From Coniochaeta sp. PMI_546 (taxonomy: Eukaryota > Ascomycota > Sordariomycetes > Coniochaetales > Coniochaetaceae): DNA of 64,000 bases. A model generated the notes under the pieces. It was not told where the DNA came from. It worked only from the letters and a program-made list of their open reading frames with translations, and made no database searches. Where the stretch lies: NCBI GenBank assembly GCA_021432605.1, contig MU271143.1, forward strand, positions 1,559,277 to 1,623,276, read 5' to 3'. Below are positions 27,426-63,736 of the stretch, in pieces. The stretch's first letter is position 1; the number at the start of each line of letters is the position of its first letter. Position numbers and translations under genes: made by a program.

Positions 27426-29342
27426 ATGACAGCAAGTCAGGCCGCTCGGCCACCGACGGCCGGCCCTAGCAGACACCTGGACGAATCGAGGTGGCAGCAG
27501 CAGCAGCAGCATGGCCCTTCTTCGAGCACGCCTGTGTCGTCGACGGCCACAAGCGATCAGTTGACTCCCGAGAGCGACTCCGACGACGACGACGCGGCTA
27601 TTCATCCCAATGTCGGCCTACTTGGCCAGGGACACGGTGACAGCACTGAGGTGTACGAATTGAAAGACCGGCGCGAACAGTCCGGTCCTGACGATGAGGG
27701 CCACTATGCGTCTGACGATGACGAGAAAGACGACAGTCACGGAGGAAGCAGGCTCGGGAGGGGGAGGAGAGCTGGCAGCACCAGCACAGCGGCCAGCTTC
27801 ACCCTGTACACACCCGACGAAGAGCGCGCCGTGGTGCGGAAGTTCGACCGAAAGCTCGTCGTCTTCGTGGCGCTGCTGTACATGCTCAGTTTCCTCGACA
27901 GATCAAGTAAGCTTGTCCCCCATTCTTCCTCCGGTTACTTATTCTCATCTCAAAATTACTTCAGTCTGACATTTTCCCCTTCTCTCTCGTGCACAGATAT
28001 AGGCAACGCCCGCATAGCAGGCATGGACGACGACCTGCAGTCCATCCCTCCCCAAGAAGACATGTACGAATGGGCATTGACGGCATTCTATATCGCCTAC
28101 ATACTGTTTGAGTGGATGTCGCTGCTGTGGAAGGTCATCCCCGCGCACATCTACGTCAGCGTCATCGTGCTGAGCTGGGGTTGTATCGCGAGCATACAGG
28201 CAGTGAGCGTGAACTACCCCATGCTCATCTTCCTCCGGACACTGCTCGGCATCGGCGAGGCCGCCTTCACCGGCGTGCCGTTCTATCTGTCCTTCTTCTT
28301 CCGGAGAGACGAGCTAGCCTTCAGGACAGCCATGTTCATATCCGCCGCCCCGCTTGCGACCTCATTCGCGAGCTCCCTGTCGTGGCTGATCATCAAACTG
28401 GGCGAAAAGGGCCCCATAGCCCCGTGGCGGCTGCTGTTCCTGATAGAAGGGTTTCCGTCCGTCCTCGTGGCCGTGGTGGCGTGGAACGTCATCCCGGACT
28501 CGCCCGAGACGGCGCACTACCTCACTCCGCGTGAGAAGCGCGTCGCGAGGCTGAGGCTTAGACACGAGCAGCCGCGGCGCTCTCGGACCTCGAGCAATCC
28601 CGATCCCGAGTCCAAGTCCGGGCCCGGCGGGCTGGACGCGGCCAAGATCCTGTCCGTGCTCTCGGACCCGGCCGCCTGGCTGACCGGCCTCATCTTCTTC
28701 CTGGCCAACATGGCCTACTCCTCCCTGCCCGTCTTCCTCCCCACCATCCTGACGCGCATGGGCCACAGCGCCCTGTCCTCGCAGCTGCTCGCGGCCCCGC
28801 CCTACCTGTCGTCCTTCTTCATCGTCCTGGCCACGGCCCACATGTCGGACAAGATGCGCGCCCGCGGGCCCCTCCTCATAGCCGCCGCCCTGGCCTCGGC
28901 GGCCGGCTACGCCGTCCTGGCCCTCTCCAGCACCCTGGGCCTGAAGGCCGAGAGCACCATCCGCTACCTGGCCGTGTACCCCGCCGCGGCGGGCTTCTTC
29001 ACCGTCGTCGTGCTGACGATCAGCTGGAGCATCAACAACCAGGCCGACGAGAGCCGGCGCGGGGGCGGGTTCGCGCTCCTGCAGGTGCTGGGCCAGTGCG
29101 GGCCGCTGGTGGGCGCGAGGCTGTACCCTGTTCGGGCCGGGCCGTTCTACACGGGCGGCATGGCTGTTTGTGCCGGGGCGATGACGGGGGTCGCGGTTCT
29201 GGCTCTGGGGCTGAGGTGGTATCTTTCGAGGTTGAATAAGAGGTTGGATGTGGACGAGGGGGTGGATGATAGAGGAGACGGGGAGGGTATTGGGCTTGTG
29301 GGAGGGAGGGGGGCTGGGAGGAGGTTCAGGTATATGCTGTAG
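27426..29342 (+). CDS. Major facilitator superfamily transporter (anion:cation symporter, Dal5/Tna1-like)
   Basis: Twelve-helix plasma-membrane carrier of the family that takes up allantoate, nicotinate, pantothenate and other organic anions; the substrate here is unknown. Two exons with the intron at 27907-27996 (GTAAGC...GCACAG). Splicing restores the family motif DRSNIGNARIAGMDDDL in helix 1. Other signatures are FYIAYILFE, RTLLGIGEAAFTGVPFYLS and GFPSVLVAVVAW, followed by an Arg-rich central loop and six more helices. The protein is about 608 residues, longer than the usual 480-550, because of a hydrophilic acidic N-terminal extension of roughly 130 residues rich in Ser, Gln and Asp. The 3' half is strongly GC-rich. 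It sits next to MSB2 with no evident functional link. Confidence 0.9.
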   Translation: MTASQAARPPTAGPSRHLDESRWQQQQQHGPSSSTPVSSTATSDQLTPESDSDDDDAAIHPNVGLLGQGHGDSTEVYELKDRREQSGPDDEGHYASDDDEKDDSHGGSRLGRGRRAGSTSTAASFTLYTPDEERAVVRKFDRKLVVFVALLYMLSFLDRSSKLVPHSSSGYLFSSQNYFSLTFSPSLSCTDIGNARIAGMDDDLQSIPPQEDMYEWALTAFYIAYILFEWMSLLWKVIPAHIYVSVIVLSWGCIASIQAVSVNYPMLIFLRTLLGIGEAAFTGVPFYLSFFFRRDELAFRTAMFISAAPLATSFASSLSWLIIKLGEKGPIAPWRLLFLIEGFPSVLVAVVAWNVIPDSPETAHYLTPREKRVARLRLRHEQPRRSRTSSNPDPESKSGPGGLDAAKILSVLSDPAAWLTGLIFFLANMAYSSLPVFLPTILTRMGHSALSSQLLAAPPYLSSFFIVLATAHMSDKMRARGPLLIAAALASAAGYAVLALSSTLGLKAESTIRYLAVYPAAAGFFTVVVLTISWSINNQADESRRGGGFALLQVLGQCGPLVGARLYPVRAGPFYTGGMAVCAGAMTGVAVLALGLRWYLSRLNKRLDVDEGVDDRGDGEGIGLVGGRGAGRRFRYML

Positions 29343-29577: not shown

Positions 29578-31512
29578 TCATACAGCAGCCTTCATCTCGC
29601 TTTTCATCTCCCTGAGCAGGAACCGGGTCAAGTCGACAGAATCTCTCACGGAACCTGTCTGCTCCTTGAACCATGCCGCGGCCCTCCTTCCGATGGTGTC
29701 ATGCTTCACCACCGCCGGTGGCGTGCCCTTGCTAGGCGCCATCACCCTCCCGCTCGGCAGTAGCACTACGTCAGCCTTGTCATCTTCAGCCTGGATCCCG
29801 ACGGCCTCCGTCTCGCCCACTGCCGTGTTCTTTTCGTCACCCATACCCACACCGTCCATCCTCTCCATACGAGTGTGCATCATCAGCAAGTCGACCTGCC
29901 TCGCCTTCACCATATCGCTGTTGTACTTCTTCTTCCTGATCTTCCCGTTGACGATCCGGTCAGCCCGCTCGATACGCTTGAGGTTCGCTTCGGTGAGCTC
30001 CTGCCCCATGAGCGCCGGCTTCTGGCGACGGTGCCTGACACGGCGGAGGCGCTTGGTCAGCCACTTTGCGAACTTGACCTTGCGCACGCGGCGGCTGAGA
30101 AGCACGGCTACTGTGGGCTTGCGGCCCCTGGCGCCCGATAGCAGCTCGTCTCCGGCACCCGACAGCAATCCGTTTTGCTGCGTCGAGGTCCGGCTGATGA
30201 TCGGGACGCAGTGGCGGTCGAATGATCCTACCCACGGATCGGATTCGTCTGCCACGCGTTGCCCGAGCCGCTCGAGGTTGCGCTTGGACGGGAGCATGAT
30301 GTGCGAGCCGGAGTCGGCGGCCGGTGGCTCGTCAGTAATGGCAGCGGCAGGTGCAAAGCTGTCAACTACCTCTGGCCTGTTGATAACTTCATTAAGCACA
30401 GAGGCCTCCTCCTTCAGGGGCTTCGACACTTCAGGGGTATCGGAAGATGGCATGACGACGGTGTTGGTGCTGACACTGGCCTCGGGAATCAACACCACTG
30501 GATCTTGAACATGGTGTATCGCAGCAGTTTCACCAATGTCAACCCCAGGATCAACCTTATCCGGCCCCCCGGTCTTATTCCAACCGTCAGCCTTTACATT
30601 GTCAGTGCCTGGTTCGACAGGCTTCGGCTCGTCGGTGACTGAGCTGGGCAATGGATCCGGCTGGTCGTCAACCACCACTGCGTCAAGAGGTTGACGGTAA
30701 CCCTCTGTGCTATCAAGTTCGGCTTTCGTCGACGAGGCAGACGAGAACAGTCGTGAGAGCCGAGTATTGGATTTGCTGTAGCGGCCGATGCTGAAGAAGT
30801 TGCGAGTCCTGAACGTACCTGGCGGCGAATTCGCGAGTTCGGGCGTCCGGATGCCTTGGCTCGGATACGACGAAGAGGTGCTGCGGTAATGGTCCGACAC
30901 CTTTCGAGACTCGACTGGAACCGGGATTGCGGAACGCTTCTCTTTCGCTGGTAGAGCGTCCCGCTTGTCCAGGGCAGAGAAAGGGCGCAGGTAGAACGGT
31001 GTGGCGAGCTTTTCGAATGGAAGCTCGGGACCATCAGGTGGGCGGGGGATGGACGAGTACTTGTCATGATTTTCGTTGCTAGGTTCCTTGTCTGTGGTCC
31101 ATGGATTCACACCACTTGGAGCTGAATCAGTAGTAGGATACCCGGTCTTCTTCCCCTTTGAACCTGAGGATTTGAACGGATGGCGGAGGCGGTCACTCGT
31201 TCTACGAGAGGCGTCTTCTGCCGTTGTCTGCTGCTGGTTGTTGATGGGCACAAGCGGAGCATTGGATCCTGAGCTGGAATCCTGTCTGTCTCGAGCCTTT
31301 GGGTCCTCGTCCTAGAGGCCCGAGAAGGCATCAAGAACCCTGGGTCTCCGAAGTCGAGCTTGTCGTCTTGGGTCGTTATGACCGGACGAGATGGTATTGC
31401 TGGTGATGTTGTTCTCTTTAGCCTGCTCCTTGATGTGGCCCTCGCTGCTCTCCTCTGACGAGGTCGGACGCATCATGGAGCGCGAGGGCATGGAGACAAC
31501 GGAGAAGGCCAT
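29578..31512 (-). CDS. Orphan hydrophilic protein, frame crossed by one in-frame UAG (candidate edited mRNA)
   Basis: A 645-codon frame on the minus strand, from ATG at 31512 to a stop at 29578. It is open except for a single TAG at codon 67 (31314-31312). The protein sequence on both sides reads as one polypeptide (RRPRVLDAFSGL before, DEDPKARDRQD after), so a Trp codon (TGG) is the natural expectation. No recognised domain. The N-terminal third is Ser/Thr/Pro-rich and disordered. The C-terminal third (about 480-560) is strongly basic (RRVRKVKFAKWLTKRLRRVRH), followed by an ATG-rich helix and a conserved-looking ending (RAAAWFKEQTGSVRDSVDL). The UAG lies in a six-base RNA hairpin loop; see the separate hairpin entry. 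Alternatives: a short non-consensus intron ending at the TAG, translation from a downstream start, a genuine nonsense allele, or a sequence error. Confidence 0.6.
31295..31329 (-). promoter_or_regulatory. RNA hairpin presenting the in-frame UAG in its loop
   Basis: On the minus-strand transcript, GGGCCUC pairs with GAGG-A-CCC (seven pairs, one bulged A) around the six-base loop UAGGAC. Outside an internal loop, GCCUU pairs with AAGGC. The A of the stop codon is the second loop base and follows U. This matches the loop position and -1 U preference reported for A-to-I mRNA editing in Fusarium and Neurospora. Pairing is seen directly; editing is inference. Confidence 0.5.
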
Positions 31513-38443: not shown

Positions 38444-41400
38444 ATGTCAGATACGTCTCAGCAGGTGATGCCTGCGTCAGGCTCTCATCTAGGAAAGCGA
38501 AGGAGAGGTACGAAAACTCCTGCTGAGGATATCGCCTCCCGCGACTCTAGCCCTTCAGTGGCTGGGTCCACCCCGGTACCAGGGGTCGACAATCAAGATG
38601 AACCCTCGACTTCTCGGCGGACGAAGGCCAAGAAAAGCAGAGTAGCTGGGGTGAAGCGCTCCGAGACAGCCATAAAGCCAGTCGAATGCGCCGTTGAGTG
38701 GCCCGAGTGGTTCAAAACCCTCGAGAAGACACATCGAGCGCTAAACCTAGTTTTCACGTTTTGCTGCACGCGGAAGCATCTGGTAACTACCTTTGATACC
38801 ATTCGCTCTGCTGTCGAGGCAAACACAAAGCGAGATCTCCTTATCGAAGATGTCGCCGCTATCGTATGCCTGCGTGCAGACGCAATCAATTTCGCGTATG
38901 TGGACGAGGTCATGCTACAGATCGACGTCCAAGGAGCCGAGAAAGACGATACTTTCAAAACAGGCAAATTTCGGGGCAAAGGCTCGCAAGCATTTGCGCC
39001 GGACGCATCTGTGGGCGGCTTCACCGGCAGGGAAGGGTTGACCACCCATCCGGATGATATCGAACTAAGTGGCAAAGAGGTTCTTTACTTCGAGTTCGTC
39101 GATGAGGACCTCAAGCGTCAGGTCCAGTGTAAGAAGACCGGCGAAGCAACGAAGCCGACGCGGAAGCTTAGGGACGAAGACGTCAAGCTACCAGTCTACA
39201 GTCAGAAGCAGATGACGACGCTCATCGAGAAGAGGAATGTCAAGTTCACAAATGCGATAAATGAGTTCCTGAACAGGTGTGTGGCAGAAAATATCGACCC
39301 GGAAATGGCTTTGAGAAGCCAGGCTGAGGCATATATACCGCACATGTCGACTCCCAGAGAGACGTCACCTAAACCTGATCTGAGCTCTACATTGCCTGAC
39401 ACCATACCGAAAGAACGAAAGAGCATACCGGATATCGTGCAGGAGCTCAAGGACAGTCCGTGGTACACCGGCCAGATTGTGCCAGACGGCCACCGTGTCT
39501 TCGATGCGCAAGACCCTGTGTACGGAGATCTAAACTTCCTTCTGAGCCAGGAGATGGTAAATGCACTCTACAACGCGAAAGGCATCACACAGTTCTACGC
39601 ACATCAAGCGGAAGCGATCAACGCTCTACAAGATGGCCTTAACGTCATCGTGTCAACCTCTACCAGCTCCGGGAAGTCGCTGATCTATCAACTTCCTGTA
39701 CTGCACGCTCTGGAGCAGGACCCAAACACCAGAGCCATGTACATCTTTCCCACCAAAGCCCTTGCCCAGGACCAGAAACGGAGTTTAAAAGAGATGTTAG
39801 GCTATCTCCCAGGCCTCGAAGAAGTCATGGTCGAAACATTCGACGGAGACACCCCTTTCAAGGAAAGGAACACAATCCGTGACGAGGCACGTATAATCTT
39901 TACGAACCCGGATATGTTGCACATCACAATCCTGCCTCAGGAGGAGAGGTGGAGAACCTTTCTCAAGAACCTCAAGTATGTCGTCGTTGACGAGATACAT
40001 TACTATAACGGACTCATGGGCTCGCACGTGGCCTTCATCATGAGACGTCTAAGGCGGATCTGCGCCGCAGTCGGAAACCGGCGCGTCAAGTTTATCTCCT
40101 GCTCTGCGACTGTGGCGAACCCGGAGGAGCACTTCAAGACCATCTTCGGCCTTGACAATGTGCGGCTGGTGGACTTTGACGGGTCACCCTCCGGCCGAAA
40201 GGAATTTCTCTGCTGGAACACCCCGTACAAGGACCCTGGTGATCCGTCCAGCGGGCGTGGGAATGCCATGTTTGAATGCGCGAGGCTATTTTGCCAGCTC
40301 ATTCTGCGTGGTGTCCGGGTCATCGCCTTCACAAGAGTCCGTGAGCAGTGTGAGAAGTTGGTTGGTGCCATCAAGCAGGAGCTAGAGAACCTGGAGCGGG
40401 GGGAGTGCATTGGCAGAGTTATGGGCTATCGTGGTGGGTACACCGCCCAAGACCGTCGTGGTATTGAAAGAGACATGTTTGAGGGGAAACTCCTGGGTAT
40501 CGTTGCAACCACGGCTCTGGAGCTCGGTGTCGATATCGGCTCCCTTGACTGCGTGCTTACCTGGGGGTTTCCGTACACCATCTCCAATCTCAGGCAGCAA
40601 AGTGGACGGGCAGGACGGCGGAACAAAGACTCACTGTCCATACTGGTTGGCGATGGTTTTGCAACAGACCAACACTACATGCAAAACCCAGATGAGCTCT
40701 TCACGAAGCCCCACTGCGAGCTGCAAGTGGACCTGGAGAACATGTTGGTACGAGAAGGCCACATCCAGTGCGCCGCCTACGAGATGCCGATCCGGCCAGT
40801 CGAGGACGCCAAGTACTTCGGTGCCGACTTACAGAAGCTATGCGACGAGCGCCTCATCAAAGACGAGCTAGGGTTCTTCCACTGCCACGACAGGTTCCGC
40901 CCCCTACCCTCAAAGTTTGTCTCCATCCGCGACACGGAAGAGGACCACTTCGCCATAGTCGACATCACAAACGGGCGTAACGTTGTCCTCGAGGAACTCG
41001 AAGCCTCCCGAGCCACCTTTACCATCTACGACGGCGCCATCTTTCTTCACCAAGGCATCACCTACCTAGTCCGCGACTTCAACCCTGACAAGGGCATGGC
41101 GCGCGTCGAAAAAGTCAAGGTCGACTGGACGACTGAGCAGAGGGACTACACCGACATCGACCCCGTCGAGACTGAAGCCATCAAGCGCATTCCGGGCTCG
41201 TTGTCGAGCGCGTATCACGGCGCGATAAGGATTACCCAGGTTGTATTCGGGTACTTCAAGGTAGACAGGCGCAACCGCATCTTGGACGCTATCCAGGTGG
41301 ACAACCCGCCCGTCATACGGCACAGCAAAGGGATGTGGCTCGACGTCCCCCGCAAAGCGCTCGAGATCCTGGTCGATCGACGCCTGCACGTCGGCGGCGC

Positions 41401-41956
41401 GATCCACGCGGCCGAGCACGCTGTCATGAGCCTCATGCCCAACTTCGTGGTCAGCATGCCCGGCGATGTGCGGACGGAGTGCAAGAACTCGCTCAAGGAA
41501 TTCGCCAAGCGGGAGACGCGCCGCAAGAGGCCGGCCAGACTGACCTTCTACGACGCGAAGGGCGGTGCCGGGGGTAGCGGGATCAACACCAAGGCGTTTG
41601 AGTTTATCGACCTGTTGCTCAGGCAGGCGCTGGATCGGGTGGTGGCTTGTCGGTGTGAGAGGGGATGTATTGAGTGCGTGTGCAGCGAGCTGTGCAAGGA
41701 GAGTAATGAGGTTATGAGCAAGGTTGGTGGGGAGGTCATACTACGGAGTCTACTGGGTGAGACGATTGATGTAGACGCGCTACCCATGGGGCCGGAGGAG
41801 TTTAGCCCTGCGGGGATTGAGACGGTCATACTGGCTAAGCCCGTGCCGCCAAGGGATAGGGGGATGCTGCAGTTGGTCGGTGTCGTGAAGGAGGAGGAGG
41901 ACGACGACGATGTGATTGTCCTTGATCAGGTTGCGGAAGCTGGACCTGCAACTTAG
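38444..41956 (+). CDS. HRQ1: ATP-dependent 3'-5' DNA helicase Hrq1 (RecQ4-like)
   Basis: Single-exon gene, 1170 residues. A nuclear helicase of the RecQ4/Hrq1 group involved in interstrand crosslink repair and telomere upkeep. Visible superfamily-2 motifs: FYAHQAEAI (Q-like) near 386, Walker A STSTSSGKS near 404, FPTKALAQDQ near 430, DEIH box (VVVDEIHYYNG) near 516, SCSATVANP near 551 and QQSGRAGRR near 722. The C-terminal DUF1998/Zn region carries a dense cysteine cluster near 1067 (CRCERGCIECVCSELC). The first 60 residues are basic and disordered with GKRRRGTK, a likely nuclear signal. The protein lacks the RQC and HRDC domains of classical RecQ. Length and architecture are normal for the fungal family. 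Confidence 0.93.
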   Translation: MSDTSQQVMPASGSHLGKRRRGTKTPAEDIASRDSSPSVAGSTPVPGVDNQDEPSTSRRTKAKKSRVAGVKRSETAIKPVECAVEWPEWFKTLEKTHRALNLVFTFCCTRKHLVTTFDTIRSAVEANTKRDLLIEDVAAIVCLRADAINFAYVDEVMLQIDVQGAEKDDTFKTGKFRGKGSQAFAPDASVGGFTGREGLTTHPDDIELSGKEVLYFEFVDEDLKRQVQCKKTGEATKPTRKLRDEDVKLPVYSQKQMTTLIEKRNVKFTNAINEFLNRCVAENIDPEMALRSQAEAYIPHMSTPRETSPKPDLSSTLPDTIPKERKSIPDIVQELKDSPWYTGQIVPDGHRVFDAQDPVYGDLNFLLSQEMVNALYNAKGITQFYAHQAEAINALQDGLNVIVSTSTSSGKSLIYQLPVLHALEQDPNTRAMYIFPTKALAQDQKRSLKEMLGYLPGLEEVMVETFDGDTPFKERNTIRDEARIIFTNPDMLHITILPQEERWRTFLKNLKYVVVDEIHYYNGLMGSHVAFIMRRLRRICAAVGNRRVKFISCSATVANPEEHFKTIFGLDNVRLVDFDGSPSGRKEFLCWNTPYKDPGDPSSGRGNAMFECARLFCQLILRGVRVIAFTRVREQCEKLVGAIKQELENLERGECIGRVMGYRGGYTAQDRRGIERDMFEGKLLGIVATTALELGVDIGSLDCVLTWGFPYTISNLRQQSGRAGRRNKDSLSILVGDGFATDQHYMQNPDELFTKPHCELQVDLENMLVREGHIQCAAYEMPIRPVEDAKYFGADLQKLCDERLIKDELGFFHCHDRFRPLPSKFVSIRDTEEDHFAIVDITNGRNVVLEELEASRATFTIYDGAIFLHQGITYLVRDFNPDKGMARVEKVKVDWTTEQRDYTDIDPVETEAIKRIPGSLSSAYHGAIRITQVVFGYFKVDRRNRILDAIQVDNPPVIRHSKGMWLDVPRKALEILVDRRLHVGGAIHAAEHAVMSLMPNFVVSMPGDVRTECKNSLKEFAKRETRRKRPARLTFYDAKGGAGGSGINTKAFEFIDLLLRQALDRVVACRCERGCIECVCSELCKESNEVMSKVGGEVILRSLLGETIDVDALPMGPEEFSPAGIETVILAKPVPPRDRGMLQLVGVVKEEEDDDDVIVLDQVAEAGPAT

Positions 41957-54136: not shown

Positions 54137-55429
54137 CTATCTAATGGGAAGCGATGAGAACTTTGGAAGTAATTCTGGTGAACCTCCTTCCTCGTCTGAA
54201 TCCCCTTCCTCGTCGTCCTCCTTGTCGTGCTCTGTCACAAGCCTCCGTATCCATGGCTCAACTTCACCACCTCCCGCCATCACCTTCTTGAACAACGTGA
54301 TCGCTCGATCCCGTTCTGTATCCCTCTTTCTCATCCACTCCTCCTCGTCGTCTTCATTCCGCGGAGGCGCTGGTACTTCCAAGTCGCCCATAAACAGCGC
54401 AATCATGGCTCGTAGACGTAGCATCTCCAAGCTCTTAGAGAACGGTAGAACCAACATCATCTCATCCATACGGGCAGCCACGCCTCTCATCACTTCGAGA
54501 GCCCCCTCTCTCAGCTCGTCCTTGTTGGCTTTCACTCTTCTTTCCCGTGTGTCATCGTCGTCCTGTATCTCACTGTCGTCCTCGTTTTCCTCCTCCACCC
54601 TGTGCAACGCCATCTCCAGCTCGACATGCACGTTATACATTTCGCAGCTGAACAAGACTGGGTAGAAGTCTAGTGCACTGATTGACTCAGGATGCAAGCG
54701 GTTATAAGGATGCAGCTGGATCAGATCCTCGAAGAATCTCCTCACAAGCGCCATGTTCTGCACAGAACCCCACCTCCTCTTCATCTCCCCTGCCCCCTTT
54801 CCTCCTCCTTCTGCGTCTAATGCAGTCTCTCCCTCTCTCATCAGGATCTCAGCCCCAAGACCCCAGTATCCTTCACTCCTCAGGTCTACCGGCCGTCCAT
54901 CGATCTTCGCCCGGACAAGTAATCCAAACGCCCGCTTGGCGCGTGCAATGTCCCCCGCGGCAACGCACCGCCGTAATATACCGACGAGCACGCCGATATT
55001 CCGCTCACGTTCTCGCCGCTCTCGCCGTATCCCTGCCAAACGCGTCTGGGCCGTCTTTCGCCTCCCAATCTCGGTGTCTAACTCCGCGTCCGTGCCTGTA
55101 TCGGTTGCTGTCTCTCTCCCACTCTGGTCTTGGTCACTCTCATCATCGTCATCGTCATCATGGAGCTCATCATCCTCTCCCTCGCCAGCCTGCTCCTGGT
55201 AATTCCTCGGAAGGGGGCGGTGCGGAAAATTCGGTACTGCGGGTAACCTCTCCGTCTCTGGCAGACCGGCCGCTCTGAACTGCTTAAGTAGATTCGGACG
55301 GTGCGAGTGCGGGTTGATGGTCTCTGGCGGGAGGTCCCGCTGGCGCGATGATGAGGCGGCCGAGGCGGAGCGCTTGCGCTTATGTCTGGATTTGCGGATA
55401 TGGCTTTGACTGGGTATCGAAGTTGACAT
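54137..55429 (-). CDS. RRN11: Probable RNA polymerase I core factor subunit Rrn11
   Basis: Single exon, 430 residues. The central part resembles the Rrn11 family: ERNIGVLVGILRRCVAAGDI, ARAKRAFGLLVRAK, DLRSEGYWGLGAEILMREG and LIQLHPYNR, a TPR-like helical repeat region. The subunit acts in the nucleolus with Rrn6 and Rrn7 to recruit Pol I to rDNA promoters. The N-terminus is strongly basic (RKSRHKRKRS), a likely nuclear or nucleolar signal. Acidic runs lie near 95-115, and a very acidic C-terminus (EHDKEDDEEGDSDEEGG) follows a helical MRKRDTERDRAITLFKK segment. Identification rests on the helical core, not on a catalytic motif. Its stop codon is only 42 bases from that of EED, so the two transcripts probably overlap. 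Confidence 0.7.
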   Translation of the reverse strand: MSTSIPSQSHIRKSRHKRKRSASAASSSRQRDLPPETINPHSHRPNLLKQFRAAGLPETERLPAVPNFPHRPLPRNYQEQAGEGEDDELHDDDDDDESDQDQSGRETATDTGTDAELDTEIGRRKTAQTRLAGIRRERRERERNIGVLVGILRRCVAAGDIARAKRAFGLLVRAKIDGRPVDLRSEGYWGLGAEILMREGETALDAEGGGKGAGEMKRRWGSVQNMALVRRFFEDLIQLHPYNRLHPESISALDFYPVLFSCEMYNVHVELEMALHRVEEENEDDSEIQDDDDTRERRVKANKDELREGALEVMRGVAARMDEMMLVLPFSKSLEMLRLRAMIALFMGDLEVPAPPRNEDDEEEWMRKRDTERDRAITLFKKVMAGGGEVEPWIRRLVTEHDKEDDEEGDSDEEGGSPELLPKFSSLPIR

Positions 55430-56880: not shown

Positions 56881-58128
56881 TTTGGTAGCTGCCAATGGCT
56901 TGGTGGTGTCCTGGAGTGGATAGGCAAAGAGGAATTGATTCGAGGTCGGCTGCGTTGCCGTCGGTGTCGAGATATGTGGGACGTCACAGCTGCCAAGCGC
57001 GAATTTCGAGCTCTGGGATTGGGCAATGATACATGCACGTGACGATGAATTGAAGAGAGTATTGTCCAGGGTTAGGGTTATAGAAACAAGGAGATACATA
57101 ATATGGTACGGAGAACCAAGACCACGACCGACAATCTACGGCGAGTCGGCACAGGAGATTTAATGTGCAGAGCTTCAGAAGCATGACCAAAGACAGAATC
57201 CCACACGACGTGACAGCCGCCACCTCAAGTACAGATGCAGGTGCAGAGAATCACGTCGCGGACCCTGAAACTCCAACACCGTCTTCCTCACGTCCAGGGC
57301 AAGCCCAGGAGTGCAATGAAGATATTCGCGTCGCCTGGAAGCAGTGATACAAGGGACATAAATGGAGTCCGACCATGAGCATGCCCAAAGGGAAGATCTC
57401 CTATCGACAGAAATTGCTATGATCATTTGCTACCCGAATATGGCGAACAAGAGATTAAACTCGATAAGAACCCGGTGACTGTTAGCTGAGATCTTCCGCA
57501 GACAACGATGAGAGGCGTAGTTAGCGACGACGATCATGCCGCGAACACGACGGCCAGGATAGGGTTGATCTGTGTTACTCACAGATACTACGCTTGATCT
57601 AAGCCAAAGAGGCAAAGAGAGTTAAAGAAGAAAAGACCGAAAGGTACTGGAAATGGAGGGAGGACGCCGTGGTATATATATGGGATATACGTGGCCTGTG
57701 CAGACTTGCTTTCATTGCAAACCATGGTGTGATATTACCTTTGCAGCTGTCTCAGGAAGTAAGTTCTATATTCATCACGTAGATTGCCAAAGCAACGGAT
57801 TTAAAATTGCAAGCTGGGCTAGCGGTCCTGCTGTCTAGACTTTCGACTTGGAGAGAACCTATAGCTCCTAGATCTGAGGCATGATTGACTTGAGACCAGT
57901 CGGCCCTGCAACTTGATACCGCCAGTTTAAAGCTGCCGAATCACAGGTGACCACAGGCATTAGCATGACGGTCCCTCCTCGCTTCCCCCACCACGACGTA
58001 ACTCGGCAACCTTGCAACTCTCGAGTCTAATATCCCGTCATCCCCTTATACCTTCGCCCAGCAGCAACACATAACCTCTCCGTCGATTCTCCTTCTAGAC
58101 TTCCATACCCTCAAACGAAGCGACCGCC
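56881..58128. other. Divergent region: NDUFA5 / Rab GDI
   Basis: About 1.25 kb without a supported gene; promoters of two housekeeping genes. It contains a two-copy TTAGGG-type element at 57068-57080. The last 100 bases before GDI are C/T-rich. Confidence 0.4.
57068..57080 (+). repeat. Short telomere-like TTAGGG element
   Basis: AGGGTTAGGGTTA, about two units of the fungal telomere repeat, roughly 190 bases upstream of the NDUFA5 ATG. Could be a telobox-type promoter element or chance. Confidence 0.4.
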
Positions 58129-59935: not shown

Positions 59936-60354
59936 GGAGTGACCGGAGCTGGAAATAACAGAGGGGCCAAGTGTTTGGTACCTTCATCGAAACCTTGGAG
60001 TCCTGTGGAATTGAATATGCTGGTTAGTCTAGCCGACGATTGCTCCACTGGTTCATAAGTCTCTACAGCAACCGGACCTGAGATCTGTTTCACGGCGTAG
60101 GCGAAGGGATAGTATCTCGATCACAAATACATCAAACTTACTTTGCACAGCGAAGCCAGCTTCAGTACTGAATGATCACGGCGTGCATTGGGCATCAAAT
60201 GTGAAATGTGGCATGTGTCGTTCGTTACCTATCTTTGGATATCTCACGACAAGAATATTGACATCAACATTACCAGGACCATTCTTTTCTCTCCCTTCGC
60301 CAAAACGCCTTTTGCAATGAAACCGCAAGCCAGAGAAGAAACCCCCACACAGGT
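59936..60354. other. Convergent 3' region between GDI1 and NOG1
   Basis: No coding signal; 3' UTRs of both genes. Confidence 0.4.
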
Positions 60355-62451
60355 TTAACGACGAGACGTCTTTCCCATTCCACGCTTGCCAGCAAACTGT
60401 AAAATATCGTCAGCACTACGCACCTGAACATGTATAGGCTCAAGCGCAAACTTACCAAATGCTTCGGCATAGGGGTACCGATATGTCTATCAGCCTCACC
60501 GGCCTTAGCCATACGATTCCTCTTGCGCTGTGCGAGCTTGGCCACCCGCTCGGCGGTAGTCCGCTTCGTCTCGTCCACGACACCGTCCTCGCGACGATTT
60601 GTGGAAGGAGCCCTGCTGCGGGACCGCAGACGCTCCTTTGCGCTCCTTGGCTCGTCGAGGTCCATGCCGTCCGACATCTCGGTGCCCATGCGGCTCCTCG
60701 TGAGCGAGCGGCCACGGGACATGGCATCTGCTTGGTCTCTGGCACGCGCCACGATGGGCCTCGTGTCGACGCCGAGCTGGTCGAGGTGGTCATCGAGCTG
60801 CGAGAGGGGCTTCTTCTGCATCTTTCTCGGGATTATGGCCCTGTTCTTGAGCGACTTCTTCATCCTTGCCTCGTTGCGGATCAGTGCGTGCTTCTCGCGG
60901 ATGATCTCGGCCTTCTGCAGAATCTCCTGCTCCTCCTCGTCGCCAAGGTCGGAGTCGGAGTCGTAGTAGCCTTCGGCCTGCAGCTTCTCCTCCTCCTCCT
61001 CGAGGGCCTGAAGCCTGGCATCGATGTCGGGGTCGACGTAGTCGGCAACGTTCATGCCGTCCATGATCTCCGGTACCCTGTCGTACTTCCACTCGGGGTT
61101 GGCGAGCAGGTAGTCCGCGCGCAGGTCAACGCTGAAAACACCGGCACCACCGTTCTCTGCTTCCACGTCTCTTGCCAGCTTCCTCCGCTCCGGATCGTTC
61201 TTGTCGTACTTCTTCAAGTGCTTGACAGCCTCCGGGATAAAGGTCTCGCGGACGACACCATTCATGGGCGTAGCCACGTGAATGCGGCCCATCACCTCCG
61301 CTAGACGACCACCCACACCACCAGAACTGGTGGTACCGGCCTTCAGCTTCTGCGCCACGCGCTCCGACAACAGACGCTCGCAGGCAGCGTTCTTGACCGC
61401 TTGCACACCCTCCTGCGTGTTGCAAGAGAGCTGCAGCATCTCGACCTCGTCGCCCTTCAATAGCTCCTGCAGTTCGGCTTGTGTCTCGGGATCAAGATCC
61501 TCTGGCCTCTTAACATCGATCTTGTTGATAACGATAAAGACAAGCTTGTTGGCGAACAACGGCTTGATCGACTTGTACAGATGAATCTGTGCCTGCACTG
61601 TGTAGCCGCACTGCTCGCTGAGATCCATGAAATAGAGGATTGCCGACCGCAAATGGGCAATAGCTGTGATACTCTGCATCTCGATAGTGTTCATCTCGTC
61701 AAGGGGGTGATCGAGAATTCCAGGGGTGTCGATGCACTGGAACTTCAGGTACTTGTAGTCCAGATGACCAACGTACAGACTCTTCGTCGTGAAAGCGTAC
61801 GGCTGCACCTCGACATCGGCGCGGGTAACGCTTCTCAAGAATGAACTCTTGCCGACGTTGGGGTATCCGCAGATGAGCAGAGTCCGGGTATTGGGGTCGA
61901 TCGAGGGCAGACGGCCCAGATGCTGCCGCACCTGGTCCAGGTACAGGAGCGGATCCTTCAACCTCTTCAACAGAGTAGCCATGCGACCGAGGGCAGCCCG
62001 CTTCAACTGCTTGCACTGGAAGAGCGACTGGGCATACTTGAGCAGCCGCACGTAGTCGCGGGAGATGGACTCGATCAGATGTTTTGCCGTCGAGATTTGG
62101 CCGAGAGCGACCTTGAAATGATCCGCATCGTAGAGGGTGTTGAGCAGATCTCGGTGGAACGGATGGATATCATTGAGCATGGGGAACGACTGCTGAATCT
62201 GGCCGAGCTTCTCGCTGAAAGTCTCTTGTGTGAACTTGACTTTCCTGGTGTAGAAGGCCCTGATTCTGCTGATCTTGAATCCGGCTCTAATCTGTGTTGG
62301 CAACCGACGCTGCGTGCGACTAAGGACGATATCGAGGAACTCCTGTGCCGTGGGCACCGGAGGGATGTCCTGAACGTAATGTTAGCATACAGTGGTGCCC
62401 CCGTCCATGGCAAGCGAAGTAACATACCTTCCATGTTGTCTTGGCCGGCAT
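60355..62451 (-). CDS. NOG1: Nucleolar GTP-binding protein 1
   Basis: Essential GTPase for 60S ribosomal subunit assembly, in the nucleolus. Exons 62451-62428 (24 nt, MPAKTTWK), 62369-60456 and 60396-60355 give 659 residues. The Nog1 N-terminal helical domain contains [13 protein letters not shown] and [17 protein letters not shown]. The GTPase motifs follow: G1 [10 protein letters not shown] near 175, G3 [10 protein letters not shown] near 220 and G4 [11 protein letters not shown] near 285. The C-terminal NOGCT region is basic and acidic by turns, and the last exon restores the conserved end [15 protein letters not shown]. Length fits the family (about 650). Divergent from URA5 across a 583-base promoter region. 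Confidence 0.97.
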
Positions 62452-63034: not shown

Positions 63035-63736
63035 ATGTCCGATCTCGCCCCCTACAAAGCCGAGTTCCTCAAGGCCGCCATAGACGGCGGCGTGCTCAAG
63101 TTCGGCAGCTTTGAGCTCAAGTCGAAGCGGGTATCGCCCTACTTCTTCAACGCCGGCGACTTCTACCGCGCCGACCTGCTGCGCGCCATCTCGACCGCCT
63201 ACGCCAAAGCCATCATCGAGGCCCGCGAGCAGGACGGACTTGACTTCGACATTGTCTTCGGCCCCGCCTACAAGGGCATCCCGCTGGCCACAGCGACAAC
63301 TGACAAGCTAGCCGAGCTGAAGCCCGAGGTGTACGGGCGCATCTGCTACTCGTTCGACCGCAAGGAGGCCAAGGACCACGGCGAGGGCGGCAACATCGTC
63401 GGCGCGCCCTTGAAGGGGAAGAAGGTGCTCATCGTGGACGACGTCATCACGGCCGGCACGGCGAAGCGCGAGGCCATCGCCAAGATCAGGAAGGAGGGCG
63501 GCACGGTCGTTGGCATTGTTGTCGCGCTCGACCGCATGGAGAAGCTCCCCTCGCCCGACGGCGACGACAGCAAGCCGATGCCCAGCGCCCTCGGCGAGAT
63601 AAGGAAGGAGTACGGCATCCCCATCATCGCTATCCTGACGCTGGACAACATCATCGCTGGCATGAAAGGGTTCGCTACCGGGGACGATGTCAGGAGGACA
63701 GAGGCCTATCGCGCACAGTACAAGGCGAGCGACTGA
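63035..63736 (+). CDS. URA5: Orotate phosphoribosyltransferase
   Basis: Fifth step of de novo pyrimidine synthesis: orotate plus PRPP to orotidine-5'-phosphate, in the cytosol. Single exon, 233 residues, the usual length. The PRPP-binding signature [13 protein letters not shown] lies near 137-149 and the flexible-loop segment [12 protein letters not shown] near 113-124. The N-terminal [21 protein letters not shown] and [11 protein letters not shown] are typical. The start at 63035 is chosen because homologues begin with [12 protein letters not shown]; the open frame extends further upstream without family resemblance. Loss of this enzyme confers 5-fluoroorotic acid resistance in fungi. Confidence 0.98.

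Follow-up and report, generated by a model that had tools for sequence, protein, structure and literature searches.

An in-frame TAG in a conserved Coniochaeta gene as a candidate for stop-correcting A-to-I mRNA editing

In Coniochaeta sp. PMI_546 (genome of 33.5 Mb in 24 contigs) a long reading frame, conserved in related species on both sides of the interruption, is broken by a single in-frame TAG, and our analysis of the sequence and of its relatives indicates that correction of this stop by A-to-I mRNA editing is probably the best explanation for it. All positions without a contig label refer to the window, that is, the whole stretch of 64,000 nucleotides that was analysed. According to this model, the TAG would truly be a premature stop, within a coding exon of a gene so far known from Coniochaeta, and deamination of the A at 31313 would let UAG be read as UGG, introducing a Trp. 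The editor would presumably be the tRNA deaminase pair Tad2-Tad3 acting with Ame1, mainly in sexual fruiting bodies if the stage follows that of other fungi. The unedited mRNA would yield only a 66-residue peptide, and the full-length protein would be the one needed.

The interrupted frame and its protein

The frame and its parts are located as follows.

29578..31512, minus strand: frame of a predicted disordered, basic protein, 645 codons counting stops (translation, relatives, structure)
31315..31512, minus strand: 66 codons before the stop (alignment to relatives' proteins)
31312..31314, minus strand: in-frame TAG, codon 67 (translation)
29578..31311, minus strand: 577 open codons after the stop and the terminal TGA (69% identical to C. 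ligniaria P0001)

A preliminary description of this DNA had reported a 645-codon gene that is open except for a TAG at codon 67, and translation of the minus strand from 31512 to 29578 agrees with it: besides the terminal TGA there is a single stop, at 31314-31312, which places the candidate edited A at 31313. At the base composition of the window, the chance of zero stops across 644 random codons is about 3e-12. Single stops between open stretches are common in the window. Requiring 100 or more codons on both sides leaves 16 of them, and requiring 60 or more leaves 83, the codon-67 TAG (open stretches of 75 and 577 codons) being one of the latter. Unless the protein is conserved, a frame broken in this way therefore says little. 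In this regard, both flanks of the TAG are conserved in relatives' proteins, which bears out the earlier view that the two sides make up one protein. An in-frame UAG inside a conserved coding frame, which a PUK1-like edited gene requires, is therefore present.

Conservation also bears on three simpler explanations. A recent nonsense mutation, which would make the gene a pseudogene or a loss-of-function allele in this strain, would leave a 66-codon product lacking almost all of the protein, and an unexplained TGA in a kinase-like match (L050, described below) indicates that broken genes may occur in this genome; however, the 577 codons after the stop have remained open at 69% identity to C. ligniaria and the same place is avoided in the gene models of three relatives, which suggests an old feature and makes such a mutation improbable. 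A sequencing or assembly error in a genome that truly reads TGG would take one base only, but the relatives' models skip exactly at the TAG, and one error in one assembly leaves this skip unexplained; we regard this origin as very improbable. Equally slight is the chance that the UAG is read through in translation with no editing: the same full-length frame would result, but the UAG is followed here by GAC, which is not UGA CUA, the context known for fungal readthrough.

The gene was described earlier as an orphan, which is not strictly so, since two protein searches found nine relatives, leaving aside P0008, recorded as the window's own product. Annotated proteins of Coniochaeta ligniaria NRRL 30616 (CONLIGDRAFT_641527) and Coniochaeta sp. 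2T2.1 (GE09DRAFT_1282782 and GE09DRAFT_1216660) account for three, and the other six come from sources labelled lgn, jgi or ena; the best named relatives are all from these two Coniochaeta. The two productive searches scored the best 7992 and 7995 candidates by shared words, so distant relatives may be missed. P0007-P0010 were added by a profile search, and because none of these four extends to the N-terminus they provide no test of the stop. By alignment, the six lgn, jgi or ena proteins start downstream of the stop, with the first two residues of P0006 placed further upstream; such starts are compatible with an edited stop, yet test nothing. Additionally, a protein search with the 66 codons before the stop (plus the T of the TAG) for uncut metagenome frames gave no candidate, and six pattern matches in viral contigs included zero relatives.

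The last 557 codons matched no Pfam family. The AlphaFold2 model of the 577 residues after the stop has a mean pLDDT of 43.6, with 454 residues below 50 and helices mainly near the C-terminus, and the last 160 residues have a pI of 10.3. The protein is thus predicted to be disordered. The following neighbours were recognised in the window by Pfam.

27426-29342, plus strand: MFS transporter
38444-41956, plus strand: Hrq1-type helicase
54137-55429, minus strand: Rrn11-like factor
60270-62357, minus strand: NOG1 GTPase

Two further features were observed in the window. A match to the U2 spliceosomal RNA (57319-57625, minus strand, 56.4 bits) covers 307 nt against a model of 192 positions and so contains extra sequence, and a TAG at 63310 on the minus strand lies between open stretches of 157 and 170 codons of a single frame.

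Gene models of the relatives and the intron alternative

Alignment of the relatives' proteins at the stop was the check put forward in the preliminary description, and three models do skip the place. Three stretches are relevant to how they do so.

31312..31338, minus strand: 27-nt core, codons 59-67, missing from every one of the three models of relatives that extend to the N-terminus
31312..31359, minus strand: 48-nt GC...TAG stretch, codons 52-67, corresponding to the skip of the C. ligniaria model, frame kept, rival intron
31282..31338, minus strand: 57-nt GT-AG stretch (GTTCTT...ACAG), codons 59-77, near the P0003 skip, frame kept, second rival intron

Codons 1-51 align gap-free to P0001 of C. 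ligniaria and the alignment resumes directly at codon 68, P0001 being without exactly codons 52-67, which correspond to 48 nt ending with the TAG. In the two 2T2.1 proteins, P0003 and P0004, codons 1-58 align with gaps; P0003 resumes at about codon 77 and P0004 further on. All three models have a common start Met and skip the stop by differing stretches: P0001 encodes a part that P0003 skips (DED.K.RDR), while P0003 encodes a part that P0001 skips (RL.RP). Owing to this difference, the sequence on either side of the stop is represented as coding in one model or another, and codons 59-67 alone form a gap common to the three. This shared gap of 27 nt compares with 51-76 nt for the 15 introns that we mapped in this genome.

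Passages of the report on 2T2.1 describe this strain as a likely allopolyploid and its annotation as based on RNA pooled from nine cultures (PMC6757388), so the P0003 and P0004 models may be RNA-supported. Similar annotation patterns are described for edited stops elsewhere: in F. graminearum, 69 genes besides PUK1 have edited UAGs that were misannotated as intronic, according to sections of the PUK1 study (PMC4817773), and orthologs of Fusarium CHE1 were annotated with small false introns, truncated models or late starts, as given in sections of that study (PMC11169179). By analogy, the skip pattern in the Coniochaeta models appears to match the one reported for edited stops, and the protein models suggest that the relatives share the TAG in their DNA. 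The same models can be read as evidence of a real intron too.

The main rival is that the TAG lies inside, or at the 3' end of, a real short non-canonical intron in an otherwise ordinary gene, a reading that we consider rather unlikely but deserving serious attention. As a reference for splicing in this genome, we used 20 exon gaps between neighbouring pieces of one domain, 19 of them in kinase genes and one in a DUF726 gene; locus L036 was left out of this set, and L037 was used for the kinase stop described below. An in-frame GT-AG intron with a GTRNG donor, a CTNAY motif and a length of 51-76 nt was found in 15 of the 20 gaps, the rows for these introns having been picked by our own score with only GT donors considered; the other five gaps were left without an assigned intron. 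Three fixed rules of decreasing strictness, all of which took GT donors only, were then applied to the TAG. The strict rule (GTRNG donor, CTRAY 8-45 nt from the end, YAG acceptor, 45-150 nt, frame kept) gave no intron removing the TAG, and passed 13 of the 20 exon gaps, failing in the other 7, and 45 of 893 control codons. Neither did the medium rule give an intron removing the TAG, with 13/20 exon gaps and 182/893 control codons passed. The loosest rule (any GT, CTNAN) gave two candidates at the TAG, of 105 and 108 nt with a GTTCTT donor, and also passed 15/20 exon gaps and 356/893 control codons.

Besides the skip in three relatives' models, several observations favour the intron. Both the 48-nt (GC...CTCTAG) and the 57-nt (GTTCTT...ACAG) stretches preserve the frame, CTCTAG is acceptable as a 3' splice site, and the 48-nt stretch, taken from the C. 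ligniaria model, would explain the stop without editing if that model is transcript-supported. Furthermore, a coding-type codon bias is missing from the 15 codons that precede the stop. They score -0.5 bits, whereas about 3 bits would be expected if they were biased like codons 1-51, the 51 codons before them, which score +11.1 bits; this points rather to an intron, or else to a short stretch with little bias. On the other hand, zero candidates at the TAG passed the strict or medium rule, GTTCTT is absent from the donors of the 15 mapped introns (all GT donors, in rows scored by us), and the relatives' models disagree on both boundaries. A spliced intron over the TAG had been named at the outset among the findings that would speak against editing; this objection loses ground for GT-AG introns under the strict and medium rules and keeps its force for the two non-canonical stretches that maintain the frame.

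RNA structure and possible signs of editing elsewhere in the genome

Stop-correcting editing, our preferred reading, predicts a suitable RNA context around the A, and folding gave the structure below.

31301..31321, minus strand: hairpin GGGCCUC-UAGGAC-GAGG(A)CCC, with the candidate A in its loop (folding)

Folding agrees with the UAGGAC loop closed by GGGCCUC/GAGG(A)CCC, with the A following a U, that had been described from the sequence. With each of the six flank lengths, from 15 to 60 nt, the A was the second base of a hairpin loop of 6 nt, and the fold energy was -24.8 kcal/mol with a 30 nt flank. Its context is U at -1, G at +1 and A at +3, the same as the preference that passages of two studies give, together with a hairpin loop, for editing in F. 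graminearum (PMC11156358; also PMC4817773). The site has every element of this sequence and structure preference, namely U at -1, A or G at +1 and +3, and a hairpin loop. Among the UAGs of both strands of the window, 349 of 1069 have their A in a predicted hairpin loop, so a loop by itself carries little weight; in 3 of 1069, counting the site, the A lies in a hairpin loop that is at least as stable. For ten mechanical open frames, taken on their coding strands and not including the site, the corresponding numbers were 35 of 79 and 1 of 79. Dinucleotide shuffles folded as well in 24/200 cases for 33 nt, 15/200 for 81 nt and 6/200 for 148 nt. These shuffles together with the window counts indicate that the structure fits editing and is not extraordinary.

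Signs of editing were also sought in the rest of the genome, in the first place among protein kinases. In a kinase-domain scan, 123 of 201 candidates were scored and at least 141 matches were obtained, 21 of which had stops inside and were all inspected by eye. TAG was the sole stop type in eight: in one (L011) the motif that holds it is uninterrupted, two (L006 and L009) contain an intron-like insert, and in the remaining five the TAG is at most 6 residues from the edge. Nine matches had stops other than TAG, among which L050 has a TGA without obvious insert and the other eight are insert-like or have the stop at most 10 residues from the edge, as do the four matches with mixed stops. The two uninterrupted cases and the Ame1-family genes discussed below are located as follows.

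G000:C2:1760382-1761062: Cbk1-like kinase (loci L011 and L037), TAG at 1760964-1760966, then TGG
G000:C5:157435-157923, minus strand: divergent kinase-like match (L050), TGA at residue 28 of 163
G000:C11:79431-80548, C7:1744175-1745215 and C2:732335-733397: three DUF726 (Ame1-family) genes (L014-L017)

The Cbk1-like kinase, whose best solved match is CBK1, reads CD[TAG]WSIG where Cbk1 has CDWWSLG, so the motif is uninterrupted and the stop stands in place of a conserved Trp. Folding put the A of that TAG in a hairpin loop with flanks of 15, 20 and 30 nt, and not with 40 or 60 nt. As stated in parts of the PUK1 study, the stops of PUK1 lie in kinase subdomain IX, and UAGUGG of N. crassa NCU03242 is edited to UGGUGG (PMC4817773). 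Judging by position, codons and context, this kinase is probably the PUK1/stk-21 counterpart with its premature stop. The TGA of L050, possibly a pseudogene, serves as a control and indicates that stops other than TAG can also stand unspliced within a domain, so the case for the Cbk1-like kinase rests on the position within CDWWS and not on the count.

At one column, which is one residue off the published numbering, one of the three DUF726 genes carries MV, one KN and one LD. Passages of a study of Ame1 describe MV at 500-501 as needed for Ame1-Tad3 binding and editing and KN as ancestral (PMC11087585). Deaminase-domain matches in the genome number nine. The MV in an Ame1-family gene and the PUK1-type stop are signs that this lineage may edit. 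In addition, a DNA methylase scan gave four matches with zero internal stops, which is no test of the FgRID site itself, and an MFS scan found no stop in the best 9 of 428 candidates and is uninformative. One text search of the literature that combined Coniochaeta with A-to-I and RNA editing gave no paper.

The editing proposal of the preliminary description is thus supported in part. In its favour are the -1 U, +1 G and +3 A in a stable hairpin loop, the failure of canonical GT-AG introns to remove the TAG, the skip in three models, the MV and the PUK1-type stop, while the intron reading remains beside it.

Relation to known edited stops

The closest known parallel is PUK1 of F. graminearum and its N. 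crassa counterpart NCU03242 (stk-21), which share with the Coniochaeta gene an in-frame UAG in an otherwise open conserved gene, the U at -1 and a stop skipped by automated gene models. Unlike them, the gene studied here encodes a disordered protein instead of a kinase, has named relatives only in Coniochaeta and is so far a predicted case of editing. As far as parts of the CHE1 study describe it (PMC11169179), the Fusarium gene is also conserved among close species, in some of which the annotation places a small intron across the stop; CHE1 differs in being edited in hyphae and in encoding a zinc-finger protein. The stop may sit in a spliceable stretch, as in FgBUD14, for which sections of the published work (PMC11156358) show both editing and alternative splicing.

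An edited stop here would be a further case of a known phenomenon. More tentatively, we find it quite conceivable, with somewhat less confidence than would be needed to call it probable, that the UAG was already there before this species, C. ligniaria and 2T2.1 diverged and has been kept, that the full-length protein can be made only with editing in fruiting bodies, that editing and splicing possibly compete at this site, and that this would, judging by the text search, be the first edited gene described in Coniochaeta. The correction of premature stops has so far been detailed in Fusarium and Neurospora. In published gene models of Coniochaeta, false introns may conceal edited stops. If the reading proposed here is true, it would bring Coniochaeta within the range of the phenomenon and would suggest that young genes, too, retain premature stops.
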